NCBI RefSeq assembly: GCF_019278565.1
Contig: NZ_CP058988.1
Location: forward strand, 1,612,001-1,676,000
Origin: Cellulophaga sp. HaHa_2_95
GTDB taxonomy: Bacteria; Bacteroidota; Bacteroidia; Flavobacteriales; Flavobacteriaceae
Length of the DNA: 64,000 nucleotides
Direction: 5' to 3'
Shown piece by piece: positions 42,093 through 61,825 of the stretch. Both the position numbers and the translations under genes were made by a program. Below the pieces are notes generated by a model. The model saw only the letters and a program-made list of their open reading frames with translations, was not told the DNA's origin and searched no databases. The first letter of the stretch is position 1. Every line of letters starts with the position of its first letter.

Positions 42093-42100
42093 AACAAACA

Positions 42101-44702: not shown

Positions 44703-44704
44703 AA

Positions 44705-45199
44705 TTATTCGGTTATTTGGTTAGAATTAATTTTAGCTATGTGGTAGATAGAAAAACACATCATAAGCAATCCGCTAAAGGGGAAAATGCTATATACATA
44801 TCCCAAAGGTATACGTAAGGTCCCCGAAAGTTGCTCTAAATCTAGGGTAGTATAGACTAAATTAAATCCGCCAATGACCATAACAATTAACGCGAATAAG
44901 AAGACACATACTTCAATTAAGAGCAGCACTTTTTTCTTTTTAGCCGATGAGAATTTTTGGTATAAAAAGTCCATCGATAAATGTTCTCTTTTTGCACTTA
45001 AATAAGCAGCTCCTAATATGGCAAGCCATATCAAAGAAAAGCGGGCAAATTCTTCGGTCCAAGAGAAGGACCTGTTTAAAAGGTATCTTGAGAATACCTG
45101 CCATAAAACGTCTAAAACTAATAATGCAAAAATAAAGATCAAAAGTACTTCCATTATTTTGCAAGTATTTTTAAAAAGGGTATCTAATCTATTCATCAT
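44705..45199 (-). CDS. dctQ: TRAP transporter small permease (DctQ)
   Basis: A 164-residue protein with four membrane segments and the family motif FSWTEEFARFSLIWLAILGAA. Its ATG overlaps the dctP stop as TAATG, which indicates translational coupling. It bridges the binding protein and DctM. Confidence 0.95.
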   Translation of the reverse strand: MMNRLDTLFKNTCKIMEVLLIFIFALLVLDVLWQVFSRYLLNRSFSWTEEFARFSLIWLAILGAAYLSAKREHLSMDFLYQKFSSAKKKKVLLLIEVCVFLFALIVMVIGGFNLVYTTLDLEQLSGTLRIPLGYVYSIFPFSGLLMMCFSIYHIAKINSNQITE

Positions 45200-46178: not shown

Positions 46179-47588
46179 TTAGTTGAATTTAAAATAATTT
46201 ACCGCGTTGTTATAGCAAATATCCTGGACCATTTTGCCTAAAAAGTTTAAATCATCAGGTACTAAGCCTTTGCGTACATCTTCGGCAAGTAAATCACATA
46301 AAATACGTCTAAAGTATTCGTGTCTTGGAAAAGATAAGAAACTTCTACTATCCGTAAGCATTCCTACAAATCTGCTTAATAATCCCATATTAGAAAGCGC
46401 ATTCATTTGCTTTTCCATACCGTCTTTTTGGTCTAAAAACCACCAGCCAGATCCCCATTGCATTTTTCCGGCACATTCTCCGGTATTGTAATTTCCCATC
46501 ATGGTAGCAAAAACTTCATTTTGCGAGGGATTTAAATTATAACTAATCGTTTTAGCCAGAATTCCCTCATGATCTAACCTTCCAAAAAAGGCAGACATAG
46601 ATTTGGCATGCGTATTATCACCCATAGAATCACAACCAGAATCGGCTCCTAATTCCTCCAATAAACGAGTATTATTATCCCTAAGTGCTCCTAAGTGAAA
46701 CTGTTGCACCCAGTTTTTTGCATGGTACATTTTGCTTAAATGGTATTGTATGCATGATTTGTAGCTATTTGTCTCAGCTTCAGAAAGCACGCTCCCAGAA
46801 AGTCTTTTTTTCAAAATAGTATTGGCTTCATCATCCGTAAAGTCAAAAGCATAAATTTGCTCTAGACCAAAATCAGACAAGCGACAACCATTAGTATTAA
46901 AGAAATCTACTCGTTCTTGAATCGCTTTTAATAAGTCCGCCAAAGTGTGAATAGGAAAAGAAACGCAATTTGCTAATTTTTCTAAATAACTTTCAAAAGA
47001 TATTTTATTGATTAAGAAAAGCTGATCAGGTCTAAACGTAGGATATACTTTAGTGAAAAAACCTTGTTTTGCTATTTCTTGATGGTACGCTAAATCATCA
47101 ATAGGATCATCTGTGGTACAGATAACTTCTACATTCATTTGTTCAAGCAGTTGCGCCGGAGTTTTATGTGCTAAAATAGTATTCGCTTTAGCATAAATTG
47201 CAGAAGCAGTACTTTCTTGTAAAATAGCATCAACATCAAAGTAACGTTTTAGCTCCAAATGCGTCCAATGAAATAAAGGATTTCGTAAGGTATACGGAAC
47301 CGTTTCTGCCCATTTGTTGAACTTTTCTTCTTGTGACGCGTTGCCTGTAATATATTTTTCATCGATACCATTAGCTCTCATAGCACGCCATTTATAATGA
47401 TCGCCGTTGAGCCAAGCATCAGAAAGATTTGCCATAGGCTTATTTGCTGCGATTTGCTTTGGGGATAAATGATTGTGATAATCAATTATAGGCATGTCTT
47501 TCGCAAAATCATGATACAGCTTTATGGCTATATCAGAATTCAACAAAAAGTTATCTGTAATAAAGTTCTTTGATGTTATGGAAGCCAT
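46179..47588 (-). CDS. uxaC: Uronate (glucuronate) isomerase
   Basis: A 469-residue amidohydrolase-superfamily isomerase, normal length for UxaC. It begins FAKDMPIIDYHNHLSPKQIA (HxH metal motif) and contains WTHLELKRYFDVD, CTTDDPIDDL and the late LTDSRSFLSFPRHEYFRRIL, all diagnostic. It converts D-glucuronate to D-fructuronate (or galacturonate to tagaturonate). The neighbouring UxuA and SDR point to the glucuronate branch. Confidence 0.97.
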   Translation of the reverse strand: MASITSKNFITDNFLLNSDIAIKLYHDFAKDMPIIDYHNHLSPKQIAANKPMANLSDAWLNGDHYKWRAMRANGIDEKYITGNASQEEKFNKWAETVPYTLRNPLFHWTHLELKRYFDVDAILQESTASAIYAKANTILAHKTPAQLLEQMNVEVICTTDDPIDDLAYHQEIAKQGFFTKVYPTFRPDQLFLINKISFESYLEKLANCVSFPIHTLADLLKAIQERVDFFNTNGCRLSDFGLEQIYAFDFTDDEANTILKKRLSGSVLSEAETNSYKSCIQYHLSKMYHAKNWVQQFHLGALRDNNTRLLEELGADSGCDSMGDNTHAKSMSAFFGRLDHEGILAKTISYNLNPSQNEVFATMMGNYNTGECAGKMQWGSGWWFLDQKDGMEKQMNALSNMGLLSRFVGMLTDSRSFLSFPRHEYFRRILCDLLAEDVRKGLVPDDLNFLGKMVQDICYNNAVNYFKFN

Positions 47589-47591: not shown

Positions 47592-48767
47592 TTATAAACT
47601 GTTTTTAATACCTAATTCTAATCCTCTTAATTCCGCTAAACCGCGTAACCTTCCAATTCCTGAGTATCCAGGATTCGTTTTCTTATTCAAATCATCTAAC
47701 ATTTGATGTCCATGATCTGGTCGCATAGGTATTACGGCATCTTTTCTGCCTTCTTTAGCCCTACGCTTTTGCTCTATTAGAATTTCTTTAACCACACTAT
47801 ACATATCTACATCGCCTTCTAGATGGTTGGCTTCATAGAAATTACCTTGTGCATCTCTTTTGGTGCTTCTAAGGTGAATAAAGTGAACACGATCTGAAAA
47901 ATGTTTAAATATTTGAACCAAATCATTATCATCTCTAACCCCTAAAGAACCGGTGCAATAGGTAATTCCGTTGGAAATATGTGGTACTTGTTCAAATAAA
48001 TAAGCATAATCAGCCTCTCTGCTTACTACTCTAGGCAAGCCTAATATTGGAAAAGGAGGATCATCTGGATGAATGCACATTAAAACATTTTCTTGTGCAG
48101 CGATAGGAATAATTTCTTTTAAGAAAGCAACTAAGTTTTCTCTAAGTTTAGACGCATCAATAGTATCATAGGTATTTAATACTTTTTGAAACTGTTCTAA
48201 AGTATAACCTTCTTCTGCACCGGGTAAACCAGCAATGATATTGTTGATTAATTGCGTTTTATCAGCAGCTGATAGTTGGTCTAGATATGCTTTAGCTTCC
48301 GTTTTTTGAGTTGCTGAATAGGTGTTTTCTGCACCAGGTCTTTTTAAGAGGTAAAGTTCAAAAGCAGCAAAAGCAGTGACATCAAAACGTAGTGCTCTAG
48401 AGCCGTCTTCTACTTCATAATCAAGTGATGTTCTGGTCCAATCTAAAACAGGCATAAAATTATAACATACGATGTGAATGCCACAAGAAGCTAAATTTTT
48501 AATACTTTGTTTGTAATTTTCAATGTAGATTTCGAAATTACCAGAGCGTGTTTTTATGTTTTCATGAACAGGAATACTTTCCACAACACTCCATGTTAAG
48601 CCTACTTTTTCAATAATAGCTTTACGTTCTTTAATTGCAGCTACTTCCCAAACTTCTCCGTTTGAAATTTGATGCAATGCAGAAACAATACCTGTTGCAC
48701 CTGCTTGTTTTATATCTGATAAGGATACGGGGTCATTTGGCCCGTACCAACGCCATGTTTGTTCCAT
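47592..48767 (-). CDS. uxuA: Mannonate dehydratase
   Basis: A 391-residue TIM-barrel enzyme beginning [20 protein letters not shown], the hallmark of UxuA. Metal-binding parts are seen in [32 protein letters not shown] and MRPDHGHQM. It dehydrates D-mannonate to 2-keto-3-deoxygluconate. It lies 3 bases upstream of uxaC in the operon. Confidence 0.98.
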
Positions 48768-48785: not shown

Positions 48786-49601
48786 TTAAACGCCACTAAA
48801 TGCACTAAAACCTCCATCAATAGGAACTACAATACCTGTTACAAATTTTGAAGCATCTGCACATAAGTAATGTATAGTACCATTTAATTCGTCAGTTTCA
48901 CCAAAACGATTCATAGGGGTATTTTTAATAATAGTTTCCCCACGATCCGTGTATTTACCCGTTTCTTTATCTATTAATAAATCTCTGTTTTGATTGCCAA
49001 TAAAGAAACCAGGAGCAATGGCATTGACACGTAAACCTTCTCCGAATTTAGAGGCTAATTCTACAGACAACCATTTGGTAAAATTATCTATGGCCGCTTT
49101 AGAGGCAGAATAGCCAACAACTCGTGTAATAGCACTCTGTGCGGTCATGGAAGAGATGTTGATAATCACTCCTTTTTTATTTTCAACCATCTTTTTGCCA
49201 AACACTAATGCAGGTAAAATACTACCGAATAAATTTAAATCTACAACCTTTTTGAAGTCATCAATAGTCACATCAAAGATGGTCTGATCTACACCAATGG
49301 TTGCGCCCGGCATATTACCACCCGCAGCATTAATAAGCACATCTATTTTACCGTGTGTTGCTATAATTTGATCGGCAATTTCCTTTAAGCTAGTTTCATC
49401 TAAAACATTACATACATAACCAAACACATTGGCACTAACTTTTTTCAACTTTTCTAAAGAAGCATTTACGGTTTCCTCTCTACGGTCAAGTACAATTACG
49501 GTAGCACCATTACCTAGGAGGTAGTTAGACATTTCACCGCCTAAAACGCCGCCACCGCCTGTGATTAAGATTACTTTATTTTCTATATCAAACAAATTCA
49601 T
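48786..49601 (-). CDS. SDR-family D-mannonate oxidoreductase (fructuronate reductase)
   Basis: A 271-residue short-chain dehydrogenase: ITGGGGVLGGEMSNYLLGNG (nucleotide binding), INAAGGNMPG, and catalytic Tyr and Lys in VGYSASKAAI. The classical UxuB belongs to another family; SDR enzymes replace it in Bacillus and in many Bacteroidota. First position before uxuA and uxaC supports reduction of fructuronate to mannonate. It is the first gene of the minus-strand operon and faces the LacI gene. Confidence 0.88.
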   Translation of the reverse strand: MNLFDIENKVILITGGGGVLGGEMSNYLLGNGATVIVLDRREETVNASLEKLKKVSANVFGYVCNVLDETSLKEIADQIIATHGKIDVLINAAGGNMPGATIGVDQTIFDVTIDDFKKVVDLNLFGSILPALVFGKKMVENKKGVIINISSMTAQSAITRVVGYSASKAAIDNFTKWLSVELASKFGEGLRVNAIAPGFFIGNQNRDLLIDKETGKYTDRGETIIKNTPMNRFGETDELNGTIHYLCADASKFVTGIVVPIDGGFSAFSGV

Positions 49602-49673: not shown

Positions 49674-49697
49674 ATTTACGTGTACGCACACGTAAAT
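49674..49697. promoter_or_regulatory. LacI-type operator O1
   Basis: Perfect inverted repeat: ATTTACGTGT, centre ACGC, ACACGTAAAT. It is 73 bases upstream of the mannonate oxidoreductase-type start and lies in the gap shared with the divergent LacI gene. The even-length palindrome around a short centre is typical for LacI-family dimers. Confidence 0.85.
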
Positions 49698-49735: not shown

Positions 49736-49757
49736 ATTTGTGTACGCACACGAAAAA
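49736..49757. promoter_or_regulatory. LacI-type operator O2
   Basis: Contains the same 13 bases GTGTACGCACACG as O1 with less symmetric flanks. The centres of O1 and O2 are exactly 60 bases apart. O2 ends 24 bases before the LacI ATG, so it may serve autoregulation. Confidence 0.8.
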
Positions 49758-49781: not shown

Positions 49782-50834
49782 ATGATTACGATTAATGACA
49801 TTGCAAAAGAAGCTAAAGTTTCAGCTGGGACTGTAGATAGAGTAATTCATGAAAGGGGAGGAGTTTCAAAAAAAACGGCGGCTAAAATAAAGTCCATTAT
49901 AGCCAAGCATGATTTTCAAATCAATGCTATAGCTAGTTCTTTAGCATTGAATAAAAGAGTGCAAATTGCGGTGTTGATTCCTGATTATGATGCGGGGAAT
50001 ACATTTTGGAAATCACCAATGCTGGGTATTCTTAAAGCTAAAGAGGAGGTTAAAAAAATTGGTGCGAGTGTTTCTTATTTTAGTTTTAATCAATTTGACG
50101 AAGCTTCGTATGTGCGCCAATTTAAAGAAGTAATTGCCTCGAAACCTGACGCCTTATTATTGGCTCCATTGTTTGGGTCTGCCACTAAAGGTTTGGCAAA
50201 AGAATTGGATGATAAAGAGATTCCTTATGTGTTCTTAAACATTAATTTAGAGGGGTGTAATAATATTTCATTTATAGGGCAAGATGCTTATATGAGCGGA
50301 TTTCTGGCAGGGAAATTAATGCAACTCTCCATAAAGGAGAAAAGCGCCATTGCTATTATGCAAACCAGAGCGAACCTTGACAATAACCATGCTATTTACA
50401 AGAGAATAAAAGGCTTTGAGGATTATTTTTCATCGAATAAACTCAGCGTACCGCTCTTAAATATCAACCTAGTTGATTTAGAAAATACCGAGGTATTAGC
50501 AGAAAAATTAAAGACTATGTTTGTTGAAAATCCCTATATAAAAGGGGTTTATGTTCCTAATAGTCGTGTATTTCGTTTTGTAAAGGCCATTAATAATACA
50601 AAAATCAACGATTTAGTGCTTCTTGGTTTTGATGGTACTGAAGAAAATGTAAAATGTTTAGAAAATGAAAAAGTAGCTTTTTTAATCTCCCAACAACCCT
50701 TTAAAGAAGCATATGAAGCTATTAAATTAATGGTTGATTTTTTAGTAGATAAAAAAGAATTAGACGAAAGAATTTATTCACCAATAGAGATTTTAACTAA
50801 AGAAAATGTGCAATTTAGTAAACATAGTAAATAA
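49782..50834 (+). CDS. LacI family transcriptional regulator
   Basis: A 350-residue repressor. The DNA-binding domain is at residues 1-55 (ITINDIAKEAKVSAGTVDRV, with hinge helix INAIASSLAL). A periplasmic-binding-protein-like effector domain follows (QIAVLIPDYDAGNTFW, FIGQDAYMSGFLAGKLM, LLGFDGTEENVKCLE). It is divergent from the uronate catabolic/TRAP operon and separated by two matching operators, so it very likely represses that operon and itself. A uronate or pathway intermediate is the probable inducer. Confidence 0.94.
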   Translation: MITINDIAKEAKVSAGTVDRVIHERGGVSKKTAAKIKSIIAKHDFQINAIASSLALNKRVQIAVLIPDYDAGNTFWKSPMLGILKAKEEVKKIGASVSYFSFNQFDEASYVRQFKEVIASKPDALLLAPLFGSATKGLAKELDDKEIPYVFLNINLEGCNNISFIGQDAYMSGFLAGKLMQLSIKEKSAIAIMQTRANLDNNHAIYKRIKGFEDYFSSNKLSVPLLNINLVDLENTEVLAEKLKTMFVENPYIKGVYVPNSRVFRFVKAINNTKINDLVLLGFDGTEENVKCLENEKVAFLISQQPFKEAYEAIKLMVDFLVDKKELDERIYSPIEILTKENVQFSKHSK

Positions 50835-50840: not shown

Positions 50841-50872
50841 AAAACAGTAAAGCTTATGAGCTCTACTGTTTT
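50841..50872. terminator. Bidirectional terminator between lacI and GH78
   Basis: A 14-base stem with one mismatch (50841-50854 with 50859-50872) and loop TATG, with A-runs and T-runs on its two sides. The stop codon of the convergent GH78 gene (50863-50865) lies inside the right arm, so the hairpin overlaps the end of that gene. Confidence 0.85.
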
Positions 50873-52698
50873 AGTTGTATTACGTTAATTCCGCTTTTAA
50901 GAAGAATTACCAGTTTATTCTTTTTTATTTTCTTCCCGTTAAGCAAGACTTTTTTTGGACTGGAAGAAATCGTAAATTCGGCAGACATTCCTTCTGGAAT
51001 TTCTAGGGTGTATAGTTCAGATTTTTCACTCTTTTGGTATGTTCCAGAAATGATTCCATTTTTAGTAGGTACTTTAATCGTTGTATATGATAATTCTGCC
51101 AATTGAGGTTTTATTTCGGCAATTTTGAAACCTGCAGTTTTAGGTTTTATCCCCCACATGTAACGTGTTATAATATTTAACGGAGCGGTACCCCAAGCAT
51201 GGTTCCAATCAGAATTTGGTTTGTATTTTACATCCCAAGCTTCCATGGTCATGGTAGCACCTACTTCCATCATATTCCACCAATTTCTGTCGCCTTCAGT
51301 TTCCGTAATCAAGTCAAAACCATATTGCGCTTCACCATTTTTAAAAAGACCTTCTAATAAATACTGAGATCCATATACACTGCAGGCCATACCTCTAGTT
51401 TTTACAAAAGCGGTAACACTTTCAACGTGTTCTTTGGGTACTAAATCAAAAGCCAAAGGCAACATATTGGCATGTAGTGAAGCATGTGTACTGTTCTCAC
51501 CGTCTATATAATATCCTTTATCAGTATCAAATAACTTGGTGTTGATTACCTTTTTAACGGATGCTGCTTTATTTTTTAAAAAACTCACGTCTTCTTTTTT
51601 ACCAAGAAAACCAGCAATTTCAGTCATCAATTTTAAATTATAATAGTAAAAAGAATTCACGACTGTATTTACGGGTACAATTTCATACCCATCTCTTTCA
51701 CCTTCGGCAGTCGCTAGTTTCCATCCCGTATCTTTTTGTGCAGGAGGCCAATCTATAATATCTTTTATTTTAGTGTCTGGTTTTTTAAATCCTAGTTGTT
51801 TTATTAATTCTTGAGTTAGATGAGGAGAAGAAGAATTTATTAAGCCGTCTTCTCGTTCTAAATCCATTAAGGTTTTTAGTTTTAGATTTTCGTAATGTTT
51901 TTCAAGAGGAGCTAAGTCGCCCGTATACATATAATCGGCATGGAACATTAAAACGGTATGCAATAACCATTCTGTGGGCCAAGTAGGGTTGTCTATAAAA
52001 TATTCATTAGTTCTACGACCTATACTGTATAAACTATCTACACTATAATGGCTTAATTGATTGATGTAGGCATCCGCTTCATAAGGAATTCTTTCGCGAT
52101 CGCCATCAACATAATACCCGGTAAAGCTGGTTGCTTTTATCGTGTGTTTGCAAAGGTCCCAAATAGCATCTAACACCTTATCTGATGAGGTGAAATCGCT
52201 TGCGTTATCATGAAATCTATTGTGAACAGCCTTCTGAAAGAATTGTAATTCTTCCATTGGAATCGTTAAATTGGCTACTTCGCAATACCTGAATGGCATA
52301 ATGGTACCCAGAGTTTTTGGGAGTAGTATAGCCGCTCCGCTTGTATTCCTTTTATCAGGAGTAAGACTTAGATCCATTTTTTTATCTGCTGATAGTCCAT
52401 TTAAAACTACTTTTTGATAGCGGATGGTTCCTCCAGGATTTCTGTCTACCTTATTTTGATCGTTTAATTTTTCACCCAAATGGAAAACTAAAGAATCGTT
52501 CTGAGTCTTTTTGCTTTCTAATTGAACCGTACCAAAAAAGGCTTTTCCAAAATCTATAAGGTAAGAACCTTCTCCTAGTTTAGTGATTTTTTTAGGAGCA
52601 ACTAAAGTGGTTTCTAACTGTATTTTTTCAGGACTATCTTGAGCTTGGTTATTGGCAATAAAAGTAATAAAAAGGAGTAAAGTAATATACTTTCTCAT
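50863..52698 (-). CDS. GH78 family alpha-L-rhamnosidase-like protein
   Basis: A 611-residue exported protein (signal ends NNQAQ). The (alpha/alpha)6 domain carries VDGDRERIPYEADA (residues 197-210: D198, D200, E202, E207), the GH78 acidic cluster, then WPTEW and AWDVKYKPNSDWNHAWG. A C-terminal beta-domain ends the protein. It is shorter than many GH78 enzymes (about 900-1100), having only a small N-terminal beta region. GH78 releases alpha-L-rhamnose; related clades also act on other sugars. It is last in a minus-strand operon with two oxidoreductases and a DUF1080 protein. Confidence 0.85.
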   Translation of the reverse strand: MRKYITLLLFITFIANNQAQDSPEKIQLETTLVAPKKITKLGEGSYLIDFGKAFFGTVQLESKKTQNDSLVFHLGEKLNDQNKVDRNPGGTIRYQKVVLNGLSADKKMDLSLTPDKRNTSGAAILLPKTLGTIMPFRYCEVANLTIPMEELQFFQKAVHNRFHDNASDFTSSDKVLDAIWDLCKHTIKATSFTGYYVDGDRERIPYEADAYINQLSHYSVDSLYSIGRRTNEYFIDNPTWPTEWLLHTVLMFHADYMYTGDLAPLEKHYENLKLKTLMDLEREDGLINSSSPHLTQELIKQLGFKKPDTKIKDIIDWPPAQKDTGWKLATAEGERDGYEIVPVNTVVNSFYYYNLKLMTEIAGFLGKKEDVSFLKNKAASVKKVINTKLFDTDKGYYIDGENSTHASLHANMLPLAFDLVPKEHVESVTAFVKTRGMACSVYGSQYLLEGLFKNGEAQYGFDLITETEGDRNWWNMMEVGATMTMEAWDVKYKPNSDWNHAWGTAPLNIITRYMWGIKPKTAGFKIAEIKPQLAELSYTTIKVPTKNGIISGTYQKSEKSELYTLEIPEGMSAEFTISSSPKKVLLNGKKIKKNKLVILLKSGINVIQLKQ

Positions 52699-52730
52699 AG
52701 TATGTTGTACTAGAATAATTGATCAAAAAT

Positions 52731-53912
52731 TTATAATTTAGGATTTGAAACTATGGTATTATTGTACATAGCGTCTAAGCCCATTTGTATGCAAACAGCA
52801 GTATTTGCGCCTGTAACAATATCAGAGATGGGGGTTGTATTGGAAATAATACTATCTCTAAAATCAATTAAAGCTTGTTCACTTGGTTCTAAATGTTCCA
52901 TAACAATTGGAATACCTAAACCTTCTTCCCATTTTAGAGTGGCTCCAGATACGCCATCAAGAACCCCTATTTCTTTTTTTTCATTTCCTTCTGGGTAAAA
53001 CCATGCTTTTGAATATTCTAAAATAATAGAACCTTTATCGCCTTTAACGCGTATTTTGTATCCATCTTTAGCATTGCTAGTTAAACAGGTAAATGTTGCT
53101 TTTACGCCACTCGGGTAGCTGTAGATTAAGTGAATATTATCAAAAGTTTCACGGCCATCTTTCCAATAATCTACACCACCAGCACCCATTACTTGATGAG
53201 GTACTTCATCTAAAACCCAATTTGCAAAATCTATTTGATGAGAGCAAAGCTCTGCGAGTAATCCTCCGGAGTATTCACGGTACATACGCCAATTAATAGC
53301 TCTTTCTAACGCTGGCTCTGGAACCATACGTCTCCAATCTCCATGACGGTTCCATTGGCACTCAAAGGAAGCAATTTTTCCTATTTTTCCATTTTTTATC
53401 AAGTCTACTACGTGGGTGTAAAGCCTAGAGCTGTGGTATTGATGACCGGTTTGGAATATCGTATTCGATTGGCTTACTTTCTGAGTTAATTGATCAATTC
53501 CCTCATAACCTTTTGCCATTGTTTTTTCGCAATAAACATGCTTTCCAGCATCTAATGCCTCCATAGCAATTTGAGAATGGGTGCTAAAAGGTGTGGAAAC
53601 TAGAATGGCATCAATAGTTTTATTATCTAATAATCTACGGTAATCATCATATCCTTTTGCTTTTCCTTTTACGGCTTTTAATCCTTGTTCTAATCTAAAA
53701 GGTAAAACATCGCAACATGCGCTCACATTAAATTTATCAATTTTATTAATATTAGATATCATTCCAGTTCCTCGGTCACCGGTGCCTATAATTCCAATAG
53801 TTAAAGTATCATTTGCATTTTTAAAATCAAGAACGTTTCCTAAAGCTACTGCAGATGTTGATAAAGCTGCTGTTGCAACAGACCCTTTGATTATAAATTC
53901 TCTTCTTTTCAT
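52731..53912 (-). CDS. Gfo/Idh/MocA family oxidoreductase 1, Tat-type signal
   Basis: A 393-residue NAD(P)-binding oxidoreductase with a twin-arginine N-terminus (MKRREFIIKGSVATAALS), suggesting export with cofactor bound. The Rossmann motif is IGIIGTGDRGTG and the catalytic region YCEKTMAKG replaces the usual EKP with EKT. The C-terminal half has the family beta-sheet (RVKGDKGSIILEYSKAWFYP). Exported members of this family oxidise sugars at C3 or act as glycosidases by transient oxidation. It lies 32 bases upstream of GH78 and 48 downstream of the second oxidoreductase. Confidence 0.88.
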   Translation of the reverse strand: MKRREFIIKGSVATAALSTSAVALGNVLDFKNANDTLTIGIIGTGDRGTGMISNINKIDKFNVSACCDVLPFRLEQGLKAVKGKAKGYDDYRRLLDNKTIDAILVSTPFSTHSQIAMEALDAGKHVYCEKTMAKGYEGIDQLTQKVSQSNTIFQTGHQYHSSRLYTHVVDLIKNGKIGKIASFECQWNRHGDWRRMVPEPALERAINWRMYREYSGGLLAELCSHQIDFANWVLDEVPHQVMGAGGVDYWKDGRETFDNIHLIYSYPSGVKATFTCLTSNAKDGYKIRVKGDKGSIILEYSKAWFYPEGNEKKEIGVLDGVSGATLKWEEGLGIPIVMEHLEPSEQALIDFRDSIISNTTPISDIVTGANTAVCIQMGLDAMYNNTIVSNPKL

Positions 53913-53960
53913 GTAAAACTTTTAGTGGTGTTATAGGATAATATTAGATTTTTCGGATGA

Positions 53961-55322
53961 TTATACGGATTTAATCTCCCATCCTGGTTCGTACGTTCTA
54001 GACCATAATTTCATGGCTTCTCTATTAAATATACGTCCTGTAGTTTCATCAACTTCAAAAGAATCATCTATGCGGTACGCAATATTTGCATAATGTGTAA
54101 GCATTTGACTTATAGCACCTTGATCAATAGGAGAGGTTAATTCTGCTTTACCTCTAATAGCGTCAAAGAAGTTTACGGTATGTGCTGCAGAAAGCTGTCC
54201 GCCACCACCTAAAGCATTCCCATCTTCTATACCAGGAACAACATTTTCTCTGATTAATTCCCCTTTAAGGTTGTATAAACGGTAGCCATCACGATCTATT
54301 TTTGCAGAACCTTCTGATCCGTAAACAATAGTACCTCTTCCAGCGCCATATTTGTCATACCCATTACGGCTACGACCATCCCATTGGATTGTTTTTTTAT
54401 CTGCAAAATTAAAGGTAGCTTCCATAGTATCATACATTTCCCAACCATCGTCCTTGTATTGGAATTTTCCTGCATTAATGCCTACATGTTCTGGGTATTC
54501 TACATCTAAGGCCCAACGTGCAATATCTAATTCATGTGTCGCATTATTACCCATTTCGGCAGTACCATAATCCCAACCATACCAGTGCCAGTTATAATCC
54601 CAAGTGTTGTCTGTATACGCTCTTCTAGGAGCAGGACCCTGAAATAAATCCCAATCTAAACCAGCAGGTGGATTTGCTTTTACTTGATGCGGAACCGCAC
54701 CTCTTTTACTGGTATAAAAGGCAATTGCTTTGTAAGCATCACCAATAACACCATTATGTATGTCTTTTATAATCTCTTGCGATTGTAATGAAGAACGTTG
54801 TTGGTTCCCCATTTGCACTACCTTATTGTATTTTTTCTGGTAAGCAACCAATAATTCTCCTTCCTCAGGATTGTGGCTACATGGTTTTTCTAAAAACACA
54901 TGTTTCCCTGCTTGCATTGCCATACAGGCACCTGGAGCATGCCAATGATCGGGAGTTGCCATAAAAATAGCATCTACATTTTTATCATTGATGATGTTTC
55001 TAATGTCGTTTTCTAATTTTGGTTTTGCACCAATAGATTTAGAAACATTTGCAGCAGCTTTATCGCGCTGACTTTTCATAACGTCACATAAGTAAGATAG
55101 TTCAATATTGTTTTTCTTATCACCCATAGCAGAGATATAGGCATTGTATCGTCTTCCTAAACCTTGAATAGCGACATGGATTCTGTCATTTGAACCTATT
55201 ATCTTTGAGTAGCTCTTTGCAGACATTGCATTTACGCTATGGCTTCCTAAAGTAACCCCTACAGCTCCAATAGCTGTTTTTCTTATAAAATCTCTTCTGT
55301 TTGACCCCATCTTCTTATTCAT
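53961..55322 (-). CDS. Gfo/Idh/MocA family oxidoreductase 2, Tat-type signal
   Basis: A 453-residue paralogue with a classical Tat signal (NRRDFIRKTAIGAVGV). The start used overlaps the DUF1080 stop by 8 bases; ATG at 55310 in the same frame would leave a gap of 4 and is also possible. Nucleotide-binding motif VAIQGLGRRY, catalytic region LEKPCSHNPEEGELL and GNQQRSSLQSQEIIKDIHNG are those of the large exported Gfo/Idh/MocA group common in Bacteroidota and Planctomycetota. It probably oxidises a sugar hydroxyl in the periplasm. Confidence 0.9.
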   Translation of the reverse strand: MNKKMGSNRRDFIRKTAIGAVGVTLGSHSVNAMSAKSYSKIIGSNDRIHVAIQGLGRRYNAYISAMGDKKNNIELSYLCDVMKSQRDKAAANVSKSIGAKPKLENDIRNIINDKNVDAIFMATPDHWHAPGACMAMQAGKHVFLEKPCSHNPEEGELLVAYQKKYNKVVQMGNQQRSSLQSQEIIKDIHNGVIGDAYKAIAFYTSKRGAVPHQVKANPPAGLDWDLFQGPAPRRAYTDNTWDYNWHWYGWDYGTAEMGNNATHELDIARWALDVEYPEHVGINAGKFQYKDDGWEMYDTMEATFNFADKKTIQWDGRSRNGYDKYGAGRGTIVYGSEGSAKIDRDGYRLYNLKGELIRENVVPGIEDGNALGGGGQLSAAHTVNFFDAIRGKAELTSPIDQGAISQMLTHYANIAYRIDDSFEVDETTGRIFNREAMKLWSRTYEPGWEIKSV

Positions 55323-56703
55323 TTATAGTATTAATTGGACGAATTTTTACATTTTTAAAGGACACCAAATCACCATGATCTTGTAATAATATTTGTCCTT
55401 TTTCTAAAGCACCAAAATTTGGCCATTTTTCATATTTACTTTCAGATACTAATTTTAAGTACTCTTCACTATTTCTTTCGTATTCTAAAACTTTTACATC
55501 ATTTAACCAGTGTTCTACATGGTTGTCTTTAGATATAATATAGGCGGTATTCCATTCTCCGATTGGATGAATAGGTTTATTGGTGTCTGCTTGTATCAAA
55601 TCATACAAGGAAGAAACCGTTCTACTACCATCATGATTACCAAGCTTAGCATCAGGATGTAAGGCATCATCTAAAATCTGATATTCCAATCCAATAGAAG
55701 AACCATCACCTTTATTTAATTCCGTATCTACATAATACTTTATACCACTATTTGCGCCAGGTGTTAATTTAAAATCTACAGTTAATTCAAAATCAGCATA
55801 CAATTCATTCGTAACGATATCTCCGCCAGCAGTAGATTCTCCGCCACCAGAAGCTAGAACACTTAAGATACCATCTTCAATTTTCCAGCCAGTTTCAGGA
55901 AACTTTTCTAGTTTAGCACCACGCCATCCCTCAGTAGTTTCTCCATCCCATAATAATTTCCAGCCTTTCTTCTTCTCATCGATGGTCAATTGGTTTTTTG
56001 TGTTTATGGGTTGGATAGGTGATTTTCTGCTGTATTTAGCAAGACTATCCGTAAGAATCTTTACGTTTTTCCAAATAATCTCAGTTCCTTCTTTTTTATC
56101 AGCATGTATTTCATGAACCTGTAAGCATATGAAACCACTTCCTGTTTTCCCATCAATTAAATAAGCAGCAGGGACATCATTAATCCAAGTTTTTAAGGTG
56201 TCACCAATCGCTTCAATTCTATAGTGGTTCCAATCATTTTGCTTAAAAGCTTTTTGTGCTGCAGGGTTGCCATCTAACGGGTTTAACCAACCACGTCTAG
56301 ATTCATCATAAATACCACCACTCCATGCTCTATCAGAAGGGTCTATCTCTACTTGATAGCCATGAACTCTTCCGTCTCTATAATTAGGAAAACTGTTGCT
56401 GCGTATTTGTATGCCAGAATTCATGCTAGAATCTACCTTATAATCTAATTCTAAAATAAAATCGCCATACATTTTATCAGACGTTAAAAAAGTATTTGGA
56501 GTATCATGAACAGTACTCCCTACAATTGCTCCATCTCTAACTGTGTATTTTGCAATCCCTCCTTTTTGGTTCCATCCATTTAATGTTTCTCCATCAAATA
56601 AGTTTATCCAAGGAGTGTCATCTTTCGGTTCGTTCTTACAGTTAAAAAATAAGGATACTACACATAAGAGTAGTATTCTATTGAAGAAAATGGAATTTTT
56701 CAT
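55315..56703 (-). CDS. Tandem DUF1080 (3-keto-disaccharide hydrolase-like) lipoprotein
   Basis: A 462-residue lipoprotein (SLFFNCKNE) with two concanavalin-like DUF1080 domains. Domain 1 (about 30-215) begins INLFDGETLNGWNQKGG and has SGIQIRSNSFP. Domain 2 (about 245-458) begins WKLLWDGETTEGWRG and has NSGIKYYVDTE and NHDGSRTVSSLYD. DUF1080 proteins include enzymes that cleave 3-keto-glycosides made by Gfo/Idh/MocA oxidases. First position in the operon with two such oxidases supports that role here. The two domains are dissimilar, so one may be only a binding module. Confidence 0.88.
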   Translation of the reverse strand: MKNSIFFNRILLLCVVSLFFNCKNEPKDDTPWINLFDGETLNGWNQKGGIAKYTVRDGAIVGSTVHDTPNTFLTSDKMYGDFILELDYKVDSSMNSGIQIRSNSFPNYRDGRVHGYQVEIDPSDRAWSGGIYDESRRGWLNPLDGNPAAQKAFKQNDWNHYRIEAIGDTLKTWINDVPAAYLIDGKTGSGFICLQVHEIHADKKEGTEIIWKNVKILTDSLAKYSRKSPIQPINTKNQLTIDEKKKGWKLLWDGETTEGWRGAKLEKFPETGWKIEDGILSVLASGGGESTAGGDIVTNELYADFELTVDFKLTPGANSGIKYYVDTELNKGDGSSIGLEYQILDDALHPDAKLGNHDGSRTVSSLYDLIQADTNKPIHPIGEWNTAYIISKDNHVEHWLNDVKVLEYERNSEEYLKLVSESKYEKWPNFGALEKGQILLQDHGDLVSFKNVKIRPINTINE

Positions 56704-57013: not shown

Positions 57014-60000
57014 ATGGAAAAACTAAAACTATTAATGGTTACCTTATTATTGGGTTTGTCATCAACATTATTGGCGCAGACTAAGGTGTCTGGTGTTGTT
57101 GCAGATGAGTTGGGTATGCCCATTCCGGGAGCAAACGTAGTCGTAAAAGGAACAACCAATGGGACTGTTACGGATTTTGATGGAATTTTTGAAATTGAAG
57201 CGAGTAGTGGAGCAACTTTACAGTTTTCTTATATAGGATACAGTACGAAAGAAGTAGCTTATAAAGGACAATCTTCCTTGAATGTAACATTGTCTGAGGA
57301 TACAGCATTGTTAGATGAAGTCGTTGTTATTGGTTATGGTTCAGTAAAGAAAAGTGATTTAACAGGAGCGGTTGCTTCTTTAAGTGCTGAGAATTTAACG
57401 GAACAAAAGAAAACAGATATTGGTCAAGCACTACAAGGTAGAGTTGCTGGGGTAGATGTTAGAACATTAAACTCAAAGCCGGGTGCACCTCTTAATATAC
57501 AAATTAGAGGTAATACGGTTATCACTGCCAACCAAGGTGGCGAAAGAGATGGGGTTAGTGATGATTTGAGTGATGATCCAGATCAACCATTATATGTTGT
57601 AGATGGAATCTTCTTTGATGATATTAATGTATTAAACCCTTCTGATATTCAGCAAATGGATATCTTAAAAGATGCTTCTGCAACGGCAATATATGGTTCT
57701 AGAGGAGCTAATGGGGTGGTTATTATTACCACTAAGAATGGTATTGAAGGAAAAACAGTATTTACTTATGAATCTAGTTTTGGTTTGCGTTCTGCAACGA
57801 ATATACCAGATATGCTTAGTGGAGATGAATATGTTGGTTTCGTAGATGACGTGTTACGTGCTAGAGAATGGTTAAACACTTCAAGAACAGTAGCAGATTA
57901 TAATAATGTAACTATAGACCGTTCTACAGAATATTTTAGTAGCAACGGCAATCAAGAGGTAGCAAATGTAGCTAGCGGTAATTATACTGATTGGATGGGC
58001 TTATTAAGAAAAACAGGAGTTCAAACAAGTCATACTGTAGGTATGTCAGGAGGAGCAAATGGTTTAGTATATAGTGGTTCTTTAGGTTATTTGCATGATG
58101 AAGGTGTAATGGGGATTGAAGAATTTGAGCGTTATAATATTAGTGCTTCTCTTTCAAAAAAGGTGTCAGATAAACTTACCGTAGGGATAAAAACATATTT
58201 AGCATTATCAGAACGTGAGCAAGGAAGTAGAGAATTATTTAGAAGTTCTTTACGATTAGCTCCTACTGTGAGTGCTTATGACGCTAATGGAGAACCTGTT
58301 CTTGCTCCAGATGCACAAGATGACCGTTTTCTTAATCCGCTTTATGAAGCAGATGGTGCTTGGAGGGTTAATGACAGATCTTTAGATGTAATTGCAAACG
58401 TATTTTTGAATTATAAGCCAAAAGAATGGTTAAATCTTAAAACGCAATTCTCTCCCAATGTAAGTGCCAAGCGTTTTGGTGAGTATCGTGGTTTGTTGAC
58501 AAAATCTTCCAGAAATGATGAAAGCAGAATAAGATCTTATTATGATACAGGGTTAAATACTTCATACACTTGGGATAACATTGCTGATTTTGATTTTGAT
58601 ATTGCAGAAGGTCATAATTTAAAAACAACCTTAATTACCTCTATCTATTATAACAACGAAGAAGGAAGTAATATTCAAGTTCGTGATTTTGATACCGATG
58701 CTTACTTATTTTTTAATACACAAGCAGGAGCAGATACGCCTAATGATTATGGAACTTTTTATTCTAAAGAAACCTTATCTTCTTTTGCAGGTCGTTTAAA
58801 CTATAATATTAAAGATAGATATCTTTTTACAGCAACAGGAAGGTATGATGGTTCTTCTAAATTATCAGAAGGAAATAAATGGGCATTCTTTCCATCGGCA
58901 GCCTTTGCATGGAAAGCAAGTGAAGAAGAATTTCTTCAAAATACAGACTGGTTAAATAATTTAAAATTACGTGTAAGTTATGGGGAGTCTGGAAATGATA
59001 AAACAGTAAACCCTTACAGTTCGTTAGCATTTTTGAGTCAAACAGGTTATTTGTTTGGCGATGAGTCAAATATTGGAAAAGTGGTTTCAAACTTATCTAA
59101 TGCAGATTTATCTTGGGAAATTTCTAAAGAATATAATTTCGGATTAGAAGTAGGTGTGTTAAACAACAGAATAAGTTTAGGATTTGAATATTACAATAAG
59201 AAGACAGAAGGTAGTGTTCTTGCGCGTCAGTTATCTTTCATAACTGGTTTTGGAGATGAAGAAAATACGCCAAGTGCAATTGGTAATTTTGGTTCTGTAC
59301 GTAATAGCGGTATAGAAGTAACTCTAAATACTGTGAATGTTAGAAATGATAATTTTACTTGGAAAACGAATATCAACTTCTCAAATAACAAAAACGAAAT
59401 TCTAGAGCTATATGGAGGTTTAGATCAAATAACTCTTAGCGATTCTCGTCTTAATGGTGTGTTACAAGTAGGTTCTCCTATTGATGCTGTATTTGATTAT
59501 GAAGTTGATGGTATCTGGCAAATAGATGAAGCTGCAGAAGCTGATGCTTTAGGAAGTATACCAGGGCAATATAAGTTTGTAGATCAATTAACGGTAGATA
59601 CTAATGGTGATGGTGTAGCAGATGCTACAGATGGTGTAATTAATCAAGATGATAAAAGAGTTATAGGTTCACAATCTCCTGATTGGATAGCGGGTATGAC
59701 CAATACCTTTAGTTATAAAAATTTAGAACTTAATGTTCAAGTGAATACGAGACAAGGGGTATTCGGACATTCAGAATTTCACCAGAATTTTGCAACGTTT
59801 AATGGCGATAAAGCGATATTTAATAGCCTAGACCAAGATTATTGGACCCCTAACAACCCAGGTGGTAAATATCCTTCACCTGAATATGGGGAGTCAAATC
59901 CTTGGTTCTATGAAGATATGTCTTTTGTTAGAATAGCGAATATTGGCATGGCATATGATTTCCCAGACACTCTTTTAGATAAATTTAAAATGTCAAGTTT

Positions 60001-60139
60001 ACGTATGACTCTAAACGTTCAGAACCCATTCACATTTACGGATTTTGAAGGTCCAGATCCAGAAACGGGATTACAGAACTCCTATAATATGGGGTATTCT
60101 GTAAAAACAATATTGTTCGGTCTTAAGTTATCCTATTAA
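57014..60139 (+). CDS. susC: SusC/RagA TonB-dependent glycan importer (pair 2)
   Basis: A 1041-residue SusC protein: signal ending STLLAQ, carboxypeptidase-like domain (VSGVVADELGMPIPGANVVV), TonB-box region LLDEVVVIGYGSVKKSDLTG, plug (LYVVDGIFFDDINVLNPSD, SATAIYGSRGANGV) and a barrel ending ILFGLKLSY. It differs from the first SusC along most of the barrel, so it probably imports a different oligosaccharide. It is divergent from the DUF1080/oxidoreductase operon and upstream of SusD 2 and GH115. Confidence 0.97.
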   Translation: MEKLKLLMVTLLLGLSSTLLAQTKVSGVVADELGMPIPGANVVVKGTTNGTVTDFDGIFEIEASSGATLQFSYIGYSTKEVAYKGQSSLNVTLSEDTALLDEVVVIGYGSVKKSDLTGAVASLSAENLTEQKKTDIGQALQGRVAGVDVRTLNSKPGAPLNIQIRGNTVITANQGGERDGVSDDLSDDPDQPLYVVDGIFFDDINVLNPSDIQQMDILKDASATAIYGSRGANGVVIITTKNGIEGKTVFTYESSFGLRSATNIPDMLSGDEYVGFVDDVLRAREWLNTSRTVADYNNVTIDRSTEYFSSNGNQEVANVASGNYTDWMGLLRKTGVQTSHTVGMSGGANGLVYSGSLGYLHDEGVMGIEEFERYNISASLSKKVSDKLTVGIKTYLALSEREQGSRELFRSSLRLAPTVSAYDANGEPVLAPDAQDDRFLNPLYEADGAWRVNDRSLDVIANVFLNYKPKEWLNLKTQFSPNVSAKRFGEYRGLLTKSSRNDESRIRSYYDTGLNTSYTWDNIADFDFDIAEGHNLKTTLITSIYYNNEEGSNIQVRDFDTDAYLFFNTQAGADTPNDYGTFYSKETLSSFAGRLNYNIKDRYLFTATGRYDGSSKLSEGNKWAFFPSAAFAWKASEEEFLQNTDWLNNLKLRVSYGESGNDKTVNPYSSLAFLSQTGYLFGDESNIGKVVSNLSNADLSWEISKEYNFGLEVGVLNNRISLGFEYYNKKTEGSVLARQLSFITGFGDEENTPSAIGNFGSVRNSGIEVTLNTVNVRNDNFTWKTNINFSNNKNEILELYGGLDQITLSDSRLNGVLQVGSPIDAVFDYEVDGIWQIDEAAEADALGSIPGQYKFVDQLTVDTNGDGVADATDGVINQDDKRVIGSQSPDWIAGMTNTFSYKNLELNVQVNTRQGVFGHSEFHQNFATFNGDKAIFNSLDQDYWTPNNPGGKYPSPEYGESNPWFYEDMSFVRIANIGMAYDFPDTLLDKFKMSSLRMTLNVQNPFTFTDFEGPDPETGLQNSYNMGYSVKTILFGLKLSY

Positions 60140-60157: not shown

Positions 60158-61825
60158 ATGAAATTATTAAAAAACATAAATAATGTTATAGTCTTGTTCG
60201 CTGTTCTGGTAACAACAAGCGCATGTAATGACTATATAGAGGAAGATATTTACTCAGATATTACCAGTGAGAACTTTATTGATCAAGATAATGCAGATCA
60301 ATTAGTGGTAGGTGTCTATACAAGTATGCGTACAGTATATAGAGATTACACCTTTAAATTTGATGGTACAGATATTTTTGCGAACAAAGGAGATCTTTCT
60401 TCGCTTTCTGCAACCAATGATTATTTTAATTTAACCTCTAGTGCAGGGCAATCTGTTTGGGCAAATAACTATGGCGTTATTGGTAAAGCAAATTTTGTAA
60501 TTAACCGTTATGAAAATCAAATCCAATGGAGCGATTCTAATTTAGAGGCTAAAGCATATGGTATTGCACAGGCAAAAGGATTAAGAGCATTGGCTTATTT
60601 TAATTTAGTGCAACAATATGGTGGTGTGGTTCTAGAAGTTGAGGAAGCGCAGAGTATCCGTACTGATTATGTAAGGTCTTCAGAGCAAGAAACGTACAAT
60701 CTTATTATTTCAGATTTAGAAGCGGCTATACCAAGCTTGGAGGAAGCTCCAGAAACTGGACGTTTTTCTAAAAGAGCAGCACAACATGTATTAGCAGACG
60801 TATACCTTACAAGAGCCTACACTTCTTTTGGCGAAAGTACAGATTTTGCTACGGCAGCAGCATTAGCAGAAGAAGCAATAAATGGCTATGATATTAGAAG
60901 TCAGTCTTTTGCTGAGCTATTTGCGTATGATAATCAAGTAAATGATGAAGTGCTTTTTGCAATGCAATGGGGTACTAGTGGTTTTACAGCAGACAAGGAT
61001 AACAATAAGCATTCGTTATTTATGAATCAAGTGTCTAATTATCCTGGTGTTAACAGAGCAACAACGCCTTACGGGTTTAGTGATTTTTCAATGATGCCAA
61101 CACCATTCTATTATTCTTTATTTGCGGCTAATGATAGTAGAGATGATGTTACTTTTCATAGAGCCATTTTAGCTGATGCAGATGATGAGCTGAAAGATGC
61201 TAGCGGAAATTTATTAGATAATATAGTGGCTGGAGATACCGTAGTGTATTATCCAAAAGTAGCTTTAGATGCAGCAGAATTAGTAGCACATTTAGATCGT
61301 CATTGGGTATACCAGCCAGATGAGTATTTATTTGGAAGACCAGACGCCATAGCAGGTGTAAACTATTTGTACACTTTAAATGCAGAATTGACCAACTTTC
61401 CAATTTTCAAAAAGTTTGATGATGAAGATTTTAATGAAACAAGATTGGGAGCACGTGATACGTATGTATTTAGAGTAGCAGAAACGCATTTAATAGCAGC
61501 AGAAGCTTATTTAGGAGCAGGAAATTCTTCTCAAGCGTTATTTCATATTAATAGGGTGCGTGAAAGAGCTACAGGTGTGGCTAATGAATATACATCAATT
61601 ACTATAGATGATATTCTTGATGAGCGTGCTTTAGAGCTTGCAGGTGAAGATAATAGATGGGCGGTATTAAAGCGTACTGGTAAGTTAGAAGAAAGAATAA
61701 CGCAATATAACCCTCAAGTTATAGATCACGGAGCATTTGATGCAAGTACTCATTTATTACGTCCGATACCAGCTAGTGAGCTACAATTATCTCCAGAGAC
61801 GATGACTCAAAACCCTGGATACTAA
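60158..61825 (+). CDS. susD: SusD/RagB family lipoprotein (pair 2)
   Basis: A 555-residue lipoprotein (lipobox VTTSAC). SusD features: AYGIAQAKGLRALAYFNLVQ with QYGGVVLEVEE, RFSKRAAQHVLADVYLTRAY, VAETHLIAAEAYLGAGN, ILDERALELAGEDNRWAVLK and the standard ending RPIPASELQLSPETMTQNPGY. The gene follows its susC by 18 bases. A terminator lies downstream. Confidence 0.96.
   Translation: MKLLKNINNVIVLFAVLVTTSACNDYIEEDIYSDITSENFIDQDNADQLVVGVYTSMRTVYRDYTFKFDGTDIFANKGDLSSLSATNDYFNLTSSAGQSVWANNYGVIGKANFVINRYENQIQWSDSNLEAKAYGIAQAKGLRALAYFNLVQQYGGVVLEVEEAQSIRTDYVRSSEQETYNLIISDLEAAIPSLEEAPETGRFSKRAAQHVLADVYLTRAYTSFGESTDFATAAALAEEAINGYDIRSQSFAELFAYDNQVNDEVLFAMQWGTSGFTADKDNNKHSLFMNQVSNYPGVNRATTPYGFSDFSMMPTPFYYSLFAANDSRDDVTFHRAILADADDELKDASGNLLDNIVAGDTVVYYPKVALDAAELVAHLDRHWVYQPDEYLFGRPDAIAGVNYLYTLNAELTNFPIFKKFDDEDFNETRLGARDTYVFRVAETHLIAAEAYLGAGNSSQALFHINRVRERATGVANEYTSITIDDILDERALELAGEDNRWAVLKRTGKLEERITQYNPQVIDHGAFDASTHLLRPIPASELQLSPETMTQNPGY

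Follow-up and report, generated by a model that had tools for sequence, protein, structure and literature searches.

Hydrolases and lyases of families GH2, GH67, GH79, GH88, GH105 and GH115 are usually credited with freeing glucuronate from the glycans of algae and plants. The BT2156-BT2159 oxidative glycoside pathway of Bacteroides thetaiotaomicron, which with its lyase chemistry is reportedly the subject of 2024 papers in Nature and Nat Commun, is represented in the PDB by 8tdf, 8tdh, 8tda and 8rr2, the last two being BT2157. This pathway (NCBIfam BT_2158_fam and BT_2159_fam) shares with the locus described here a periplasmic Gfo/Idh/MocA 3-dehydrogenase, a DUF1080 cleavage protein and two Gfo/Idh/MocA genes; in contrast, the Cellulophaga locus fuses two DUF1080 domains in one protein, lacks a TIM barrel in its cluster and is linked to glucuronate catabolism. 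BT2158 is termed a periplasmic glycoside 3-dehydrogenase (PMC11300592) and BT2157 a 3-ketotrehalose hydrolase (PMC9007349). The LacABC-DUF1080 lactose pathway of Caulobacter and Pedobacter likewise couples periplasmic 3-oxidation to a proposed DUF1080 cleavage, its own traits being a LacABC-type oxidase and a single DUF1080 (PMC9007349). Another relative is the P2B11 glucuronide-3-dehydrogenase (PDB 8tdi), a Gfo/Idh/MocA protein named for C3 oxidation of glucuronides. Compared by two proteins alone, polysaccharide utilization locus (PUL) 8 of Maribacter sp. MAR_2009_72 also belongs here, as a Gfo/Idh/MocA protein without known function and a mannonate dehydratase are expressed on arabinogalactan (PMC11036162).

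We analyzed a stretch of 64,000 nucleotides (the window) from the marine Cellulophaga sp. HaHa_2_95. ORF listing and Pfam searches revealed a four-gene set on the minus strand at 50863-56703 and agreed with the gene content given in an earlier note on this DNA, namely a double-DUF1080 lipoprotein, two Tat-type oxidoreductases and a GH78 protein, divergent from a susCD pair and a short GH115 (Table 1). The double-DUF1080 gene overlaps the gene for the oxidoreductase with the catalytic motif EKP by 8 bases, and the remaining gaps in the set are 48 and 32 bases. From sequence comparisons, we propose with a probability of roughly 0.55 that the set encodes a module of the periplasm which, without hydrolysis, takes terminal glucuronic acid or a closely similar hexuronic acid off the oligosaccharides of the neighbouring SusCD system. 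In such a pathway, the GH78 enzyme would strip capping L-rhamnose, the EKP enzyme with bound NAD would oxidise C3 of the uncovered hexuronide, and the C-terminal DUF1080 domain would eliminate the aglycone to yield a 2-hydroxy-3-keto-glycal. Hydration would then fall to the N-terminal DUF1080 domain, or with lower probability to a TIM barrel from another part of the genome, and the 3-keto acid would be reduced by the EKP enzyme or its EKT-type neighbour, closing the redox cycle. The TRAP transporter would take up the acid, and UxaC, mannonate oxidoreductase and UxuA would convert it to KDG.

Table 1. Features of the module and its surroundings (positions in the window).
Feature	Coordinates	Strand	Details
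TRAP transporter	43398..46173	-	DctP 45199-46173, DctQ 44705-45199, DctM 43398-44702
UxaC, glucuronate isomerase	46179..47588	-	658.4 bits
UxuA, D-mannonate dehydratase	47592..48767	-	438.6 bits
SDR, D-mannonate oxidoreductase (PRK08277)	48786..49601	-	355 bits, cut-off 281
LacI-type operator core GTGTACGCACAC, copy 1	49680..49691		mannonate oxidoreductase/lacI intergenic
LacI-type operator core GTGTACGCACAC, copy 2	49740..49751		same operator search as copy 1
LacI-family regulator	49782..50834	+	LacI 43.7 bits, Peripla_BP_4 130.7 bits
GH78-type 6-hairpin glycosidase, putative alpha-L-rhamnosidase, operon's last gene	50863..52698	-	611 aa; Pfam
EKT-type Gfo/Idh/MocA oxidoreductase, Tat-type signal	52731..53912	-	393 aa; Pfam
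EKP-type Gfo/Idh/MocA oxidoreductase, Tat-type signal	53961..55322	-	453 aa; Pfam
Double-DUF1080 protein (PF06439 x2), lipoprotein-like signal, operon's first gene	55315..56703	-	462 aa; Pfam
susC	57014..60139	+	divergent from module
susD	60158..61825	+	divergent from module
Short GH115-like protein	61946..64000	+	open frame 688 aa, end just beyond window

The double-DUF1080 protein matches PF06439 (DUF1080, 3keto-disac_hyd) in two stretches (293.5 bits, cut-off 26.8 in Pfam), an N-domain at about residues 31-222 and a C-domain at about 236-458. It matches PDB 4jqt_A with 536 bits over residues 31-457 and shares the two-domain architecture of that protein, whose record name, 'putative glycosyl hydrolase', carries no assigned function. 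An NCBIfam search with the double-DUF1080 protein returned no named family at E 1e-5, and a scan of viral contigs gave no relative. The C-domain shows kinship to two proteins of solved structure, 8tda and 8rr2 (126-127 bits), which places it among the DUF1080 cleavage domains, whereas the N-domain is distant from both (24 bits). Together with the likeness of the EKP enzyme to BT_2158_fam, 8tdf and 8tdh described below, this homology backs the earlier proposal of an oxidative 3-keto cleavage module. In a tree with 15 doubles, the two domains lie on opposite sides of a branch with 98% SH-aLRT support and represent different DUF1080 subfamilies, and we rejected a recent tandem duplication on this ground. 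Across 82 dereplicated doubles, 50 of 185 N-domain and 80 of 213 C-domain positions are at least 95% invariant, and Q117, E119, R125, Q195 and H197 of the N-domain are kept in all 82 (positions in the top rows of alignments A1 and A2 are one too low, as the initial Met is missing there). Given that the domains come from separate subfamilies and that each is strongly conserved, the N-domain may stand in for a TIM-barrel hydratase.

A search of the window found no TIM-barrel partner besides UxuA. The earlier note was thus right that the cluster lacks one, and wrong to see in this a peculiarity of the cluster, since it is the rule for doubles: a TIM barrel lies within 5 kb of 4/118 doubles versus 12/24 single-DUF1080 loci of the C-type (Fisher 4e-8), and of 2/26 versus 12/24 when the doubles come from an evenly drawn phylum sample (p 0.0013). 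For these counts, 27 C-type single loci and 27 phylum doubles were fetched, and those without the focal ORF (L184, L196 and L199; L161) were dropped. N-domain and TIM barrel thus show an exclusion pattern across loci. The N-domain is still kept in the four doubles whose neighbourhood of 5 kb includes a TIM barrel, and in two of these, L055 and L101, where the TIM gene directly adjoins the double, 0 and 2 invariant N-positions are changed, which weakens the replacement idea. It is quite conceivable, if not our preference, that the N-domain is carbohydrate-binding or structural and that hydration is non-enzymatic or left to a distantly encoded TIM barrel. These four doubles speak for that view, as do the low N-domain score against 8tda and 8rr2 and six AP_endonuc_2 proteins above cut-off elsewhere in the genome, each more than 250 kb away, of which two lie in an oxidative cluster of the LacA type; against it stand the invariant polar set, the rarity of TIM barrels beside doubles, and N-type domains that occur solo beside Gfo genes (L167) or fused to a putative haem dehydrogenase (L162-L166). 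We take the cluster at C1:202-220 kb of this genome to be of the LacABC-like kind.

In the window, an operon of mannonate oxidoreductase, UxuA, UxaC and TRAP genes adjoins the module and completes the isomerase pathway of D-glucuronate (UxaC 658, mannonate oxidoreductase 355 with cut-off 281, UxuA 439 bits). Our genome search found UxuA in a single copy; its gene ends 2.1 kb away from that for GH78. Such an operon beside the module, which the earlier note does not mention, suggests what the product of the module is. UxuA/UxaC genes lie within about 10 kb of 31/118 doubles, near-copies with the same gene content included (L022/L109 and L044/L102), versus 1/52 single-DUF1080 loci (Fisher 7e-5), which argues for a hexuronic acid context; some fetched stretches end at contig ends. 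All 28 single loci from relatives are included in the 52, 13 of them without a BLAST-visible focal ORF, and rechecking all 28 for UxuA/UxaC gave 0/28. In the evenly drawn phylum sample, linkage is seen in just 3/26 doubles versus 1/24 singles. The genes share one co-directional run with the double in 21/118 cases, exemplified by mannonate oxidoreductase-UxuA-UxaC-KdgK-Eda-TRAP-double-EKP-EKT in L072, L090 and L097, and such runs also occur in other families (L147, L149). A quickly built tree of 105 doubles calls for 14 changes of the linkage trait, at least 9 of which are forced by well-supported branches.

We built a LacI-type operator pattern from four promoters (the LacI/SDR promoters of the window and L022, and those of L082 and L095) and then searched the last 350 bases or fewer of each intergenic region. 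With at most two mismatches, it occurs in 12/801 regions, six before a double-DUF1080 gene and the other six before a LacI gene, mostly in common with the uronate operon (6), that is, in 6/118 double promoters versus 6/683 other regions (Fisher 0.004; the shuffled control preserved single-base composition alone). The six non-double regions are all LacI or LacI/mannonate-oxidoreductase promoters. Sites outside the derivation set are in L030, L031, L103, L106 (two), L111, L113 and L157, and L109 repeats L022. In the Cellulophaga genome, GTGTACGCACAC has only two exact matches, at 49680 and 49740. In some genera the double-DUF1080 module and glucuronate catabolism have a putative operator in common; 112/118 doubles, the module in the window included, are without it.

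The module might instead act on neutral sugars (xylosyl, glucosyl or rhamnosyl ends) as in B. thetaiotaomicron, with the uronate operon nearby since the glycan holds glucuronate released by GH115. Two GH115 genes in the PUL, the 87/118 doubles without UxuA/UxaC in the fetched stretch and the requirement of BT2158 for glucose disaccharides, stated in PMC11300592, fit this account. We nevertheless consider it rather unlikely, as uronate operons accompany the module where the flanking ORFs contain no GH family (L072, L082 and 10/11 ORFs of L097; the uronate operons of L090, L095 and L149 were inspected by eye or partly scanned for GH families), the double lies inside or within the uronate run in L066, L147 and L149, and the operator is common to double and LacI/uronate promoters. 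Extended beyond Cellulophaga, the hexuronide reading would make the module a widespread bacterial 'oxidative glucuronidase' in which a double DUF1080, one domain acting as 3-keto-hexuronide lyase and the other as hydratase, works with a BT2158-like oxidase and is co-regulated with glucuronate catabolism by LacI in several genera; we offer this extension only tentatively. If true, a large Bacteroidota group (both-domain matches in 68/395 evenly drawn genomes, two ending early, at residue 402) would have an extra, oxidative route of glucuronate release, which CAZyme-only diet predictions for marine bacteria would overlook. This reading also yields testable predictions for the 4jqt structure and the N-type DUF1080 domain.

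Gfo/Idh/MocA Pfam models match both oxidoreductases, whose translations contain Tat-type RRxF motifs and the catalytic motifs EKP (residues 145-147) and EKT (residues 129-131), respectively. The earlier note had read EKP versus EKT as setting the cluster apart from known ones. Since the motifs are traits of two families (EKP in 67/67, EKT in 30/32), they are no mark of cluster divergence, and we rejected EKT as a divergent motif of the Cellulophaga cluster. The best NCBIfam model for the EKP enzyme is BT_2158_fam 'glycoside 3-dehydrogenase' (147 bits), followed by an inositol 2-dehydrogenase model (79 bits). Its profile scores 146 and 143 bits against 8tdf and 8tdh, 92 against DgpA and at most 58 against all inositol dehydrogenases among the matches listed, so that the kinship with inositol dehydrogenases that the earlier note had named as a ground for refutation does not apply to this enzyme, which is probably a glycoside (hexuronide) C3 oxidase. 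Counting against the hexuronide reading, the EKP enzyme reaches merely 147 bits of the BT_2158_fam equivalog cut-off of 750, which the EKT enzyme (104 bits) also misses, and 8tdi, no close relative, is matched by the EKT profile (87 bits) and is absent from the 30 matches of the EKP profile at a threshold of 1e-10. The EKT profile matches best 3ezy (111 bits, named only 'dehydrogenase'), 3ec7 (106) and the inositol dehydrogenase 3cea (101), then DgpA (99) and 8tdf (96); among family models, BT_2158_fam (104 bits) and the inositol 2-dehydrogenase model (102) score almost alike, so that the EKT enzyme may be kin to either. It is an accessory member of the set and may be a second oxidase or a reductase of the 3-keto sugar.

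The grouping recurs beyond chance: among the best 80 of 320 relatives from a scan of genome contigs (genome_contigs), an EKP-type gene (at least 40% identity) is present in the fetched stretch of 75/80 and directly adjoins the double in 73/80, as in 12/12 near relatives, whereas in the evenly drawn phylum sample (at least 38% identity) it does so in merely 13/26; an EKT-type gene is found in 33/80. Tat-type motifs in 90/100 EKP and 35/41 EKT sequences indicate the periplasm. That the two oxidoreductases act on free inositols or amino sugars in an accidental gene neighbourhood is very improbable given this adjacency, the Tat-type motifs and the clearly BT2158-like EKP profile, even though the EKT profile ranks 3ezy, 3ec7 and the inositol dehydrogenase slightly over DgpA and 8tdf.

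The GH78 protein carries the catalytic 6-hairpin domain (PF17389 Bac_rhamnosid6H, 135.9 bits, cut-off 24.5), shows weak kinship to PDB entries (42 bits) and contains DGDRERIPYEAD and HAWG blocks conserved across 25 sequences. Among the same best 80 of 320 relatives, GH78 occurs in 20/80 loci, the full four-gene set in 10/80 and the set plus GH115 and susC, close to the co-occurrence for which the earlier note had suggested a search, in 8/80. That note had also placed the module in a sulfated-glycan PUL. We rejected this label for the module's own unit, as a PF00884 search found no sulfatase within about 37 kb of the module; on the left the nearest lies about 37 kb away (12306-14144 in the window), on the right about 50 kb. 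The module's side of the locus encodes two GH115, GH92, two GH29, GH3, a PI-PLC-like protein and an HTCS regulator. On the basis of its GH92, GH29, GH115, GH78 and GH3 content, we considered diatom or brown-algal glucuronomannan, arabinogalactan and ulvan-like Rha-GlcA termini as candidate substrates. In the genome search, the GH115-like protein starting at 61946 matched part of the GH115 model with 58 bits. GH115 of the same PUL could be an alternative supply of glucuronate, by hydrolysis.

The Cellulophaga genome is a single contig of 4.54 Mb, and the first gene of the module is 97% identical to its counterpart in C. baltica, the nearest named relative in the scan. As the earlier note had described, the four genes lie divergent from a susCD pair and GH115, and both Gfo/Idh/MocA enzymes carry Tat-type signals. 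An 8-base overlap is followed by gaps of 48 and 32 bases, and the first gene encodes a lipoprotein-like protein with two PF06439 (DUF1080) domains detected by Pfam. The description of this unit as a sulfated-glycan PUL did not hold: no PF00884 sulfatase lies closer than ~37 kb on the left or ~50 kb on the right, so the label suits the left neighbouring cluster instead. In the genome search, the short GH115-like protein matched only part of the GH115 model (143-331 of 335); another GH115, full-length at 1001 aa, is encoded ~10 kb beyond it. At five other loci (L026, L030, L031, L046, and L096), the GH115 and double-DUF1080 proteins are 56-81% identical to those of the window while the adjacent SusC (and SusD) shows 25-33% identity or no match, apparently through an exchange of the transporter genes.

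Features of the region, in window coordinates unless stated otherwise
Feature	Position	Strand or orientation	Content
Unassigned protein	270-2999		910 aa, in glycan-degradation cluster
Unassigned protein	3061-5022		654 aa, in glycan-degradation cluster
Haem-binding protein	25606-27849	minus	DUF7133-HEAT-cytochrome c, PVC-type; adjoins second susCD
Possible uronate cluster	33874-43276		GH88-, SASA-, MFS-, KduI-, SDR-, DUF4861-type genes
Unassigned protein	35111-36202		364 aa, in glycan-degradation cluster
Palindrome copies	49680 and 49740		between LacI gene and mannonate oxidoreductase operon
Opposite side of module			LacI regulator, then D-mannonate oxidoreductase, UxuA, UxaC, TRAP transporter
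Four-gene module	50863-56703	minus	double-DUF1080, two Gfo/Idh/MocA, GH78-type; head to tail
Transport and GH115 genes	57014-64000	divergent from module	susC, susD, short GH115
Short GH115-like protein	61946-64000		~688 aa
Right flank	past window		GH92, two GH29, GH3, PI-PLC-like protein, full GH115, metallophosphoesterase, HTCS regulator
Possible oxidase-DUF1080 pair	L016 14934-17524 (C1:1608934-1611524)		just left of window; single DUF1080 beside PF12831 FAD-dependent oxidoreductase
Putative LacA-type cluster	L018 (C1:202001-220000)		two differing DUF1080 proteins, two TIM barrels, Gfo-like protein, transporter

The module is best read as an oxidative hexuronide-cleaving system, probably for glucuronic acid, in which GH78, judged from gene order, would remove rhamnose and thereby uncover the glucuronic acid. 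UxuA or UxaC genes were found within ~10 kb of 31 of 118 double-DUF1080 genes but of only 1 of 52 single-DUF1080 loci (Fisher 7e-5). By sample, linkage was seen at 26/80 scan loci (the best 80 of 320 relatives), 2/12 near relatives and 3/26 loci drawn evenly across the phylum; this last sample alone showed no clear difference from singles (1/24). The double gene shares one co-directional run (gaps ≤250 bases) with UxuA/UxaC in 21 of the 118, in several gene orders. L072, L090, and L097 have the order mannonate oxidoreductase-UxuA-UxaC-KdgK-Eda-TRAP-double-EKP-EKT, L066 has the double inside the uronate run, and the double is also part of such a run in L147 and L149, which belong to other families. 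A quick tree built from 105 doubles called for 14 changes in uronate linkage, at least nine of them forced by well-supported branches. UxuA is single-copy in the Cellulophaga genome, and its end lies 2.1 kb from the GH78 gene.

The main rival explanation is that neutral sugars are the module's substrate and that GH115 supplies the glucuronate. The four-gene set does recur with GH115 and susC, as the earlier note had proposed to search for, but in a minority of loci: among the best 80 of 320 relatives, 10 have the full set and eight have it with GH115 and susC, including Mariniflexile fucanivorans, Algibacter lectus, Flavivirga, and Maribacter polysaccharolyticus. At uronate-linked loci, Pfam scans detected no GH family among the ORFs on either side in L072 and L082, which include thiamine, galactokinase, and housekeeping genes (with a polysaccharide deacetylase 8 kb off in L072), nor in 10 of 11 flanking ORFs of L097; a GH32 lies near L147. 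The name of PDB entry 8tdi, 'glucuronide-3-dehydrogenase', indicates that glucuronide 3-oxidation itself has already been reported. The titles and abstracts searched, a body that excludes many subscription papers, contained no link between DUF1080 and glucuronate catabolism; published context for the module comes from five papers (PMC9007349, PMC11300592, PMC11036162, PMC9723552, PMC10628242).

The EKP oxidoreductase, named after its catalytic motif, scored 147 bits against NCBIfam BT_2158_fam, below the cut-off of 750, and is thus no equivalog. In profile comparisons, 8tdf (146 bits) and 8tdh (143) were clearly ahead of DgpA (92), inositol dehydrogenases (≤58), and GH109 (55). For the EKT enzyme, BT_2158_fam (104 bits) and inositol 2-dehydrogenase (102) scored alike, and profiles gave 3ezy 111, 3ec7 106, 3cea 101, DgpA 99, 8tdf 96, and 8tdi 87 bits. 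The motif difference, once taken as a sign of an unusual cluster, proved regular: EKP occurs in 67/67 members of its dereplicated family (with a downstream xNNxTH in 66/67) and EKT in 30/32 of its own. EKT and GH78 are accessory genes, being present at ≥40% identity in only 33 and 20 of the best 80 of 320 relatives, compared with 75 for EKP. EKP directly adjoins the double in 73 of these 80, in 12/12 near relatives, and in 13/26 of the phylum sample.

The double-DUF1080 protein matched PDB 4jqt over residues 31-457 (536 bits). Its C-domain is kin to 8tda, 8rr2, and others (126-127 bits), and its N-domain only weakly so to these two (24 bits). Given that a 98% branch separates N- from C-domains (quick tree, 60 domains, 15 doubles), the protein joins, on this phylogeny, members of two DUF1080 subfamilies and is not the product of a recent duplication. 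C-type singles such as L172 nest among the doubles' C-domains in the same tree. In 82 dereplicated doubles, 50/185 N-domain and 80/213 C-domain positions are ≥95% invariant, and Q117, E119, R125, Q195, and H197 of the N-domain occur in all 82. Such conservation is not what would be expected of a domain in decay.

The TIM-barrel partner is indeed absent here, but this is no peculiarity and is typical of the double form: 4/118 doubles and 12/24 C-type singles have an AP_endonuc_2-like gene within 5 kb (Fisher 4e-8; phylum sample, 2/26 versus 12/24, p 0.0013), as do 5/6 of the singles nearest to the C-domain (54-62% identity). The simplest reading of this distribution is that the N-domain performs the TIM barrel's job, which we assume from work on related pathways to be hydration. 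Counter to replacement, a TIM barrel directly adjoins the double in L055 and L101, where the N-domain is conserved, and lies within 5 kb of it in L157 and L181. The Cellulophaga genome has six other AP_endonuc_2 proteins, two of them in a LacA-type oxidative cluster. Five loci (L162-L166; BLAST on all, Pfam on two) encode a fusion in which an N-type domain follows a DUF7133-HEAT-cytochrome c protein, an arrangement suggesting that this domain can work downstream of a different oxidase.

We derived a candidate LacI-type operator from four promoters (the LacI/SDR promoters of the window and of L022, plus one promoter each from L082 and L095). The palindrome TGTGTRCGYACACA has two copies in the window, the only exact matches to its 12-base core in the Cellulophaga genome. 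With ≤1 mismatch, 3.50 Mb of fetched loci contained 10 sites, compared with a mean of 1.3 in three shuffles. All 10 are intergenic: five lie upstream of a double-DUF1080 gene (L082, L095, L103, L106, L157) and five between LacI and a uronate operon (L022, L030, L031, L109, L111), the L109 site repeating that of L022. With ≤2 mismatches, sites occurred in 6/118 double promoters and 6/683 other intergenic regions, every one of the latter a LacI or LacI/uronate promoter; five of the six site-bearing doubles have a LacI gene nearby, and none was seen at L157. The site is absent from 112/118 doubles and from the window's own module, leaving LacI control of the Cellulophaga module unsupported by this operator.

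Homologues of the window's haem-binding protein (28-31% identity) include the L162-L166 fusions and lie near double-DUF1080/EKP/UxuA genes in eight Maribacter loci; it is possibly a further sugar oxidase supplying DUF1080 lyases. The L016 pair is a possible additional oxidase-DUF1080 pairing. The L018 cluster resembles a LacA-type GMC oxidoreductase set, and in two relatives (G001, G012) both DUF1080 matches fall in one ORF (534 or 549 aa). The 910-, 654-, and 364-aa proteins had no Pfam match at 0.001 and no NCBIfam match at 1e-5. The gene cluster at 33874-43276 is perhaps a separate unsaturated-uronate route besides UxaC-UxuA, with its SDR as a putative KduD.
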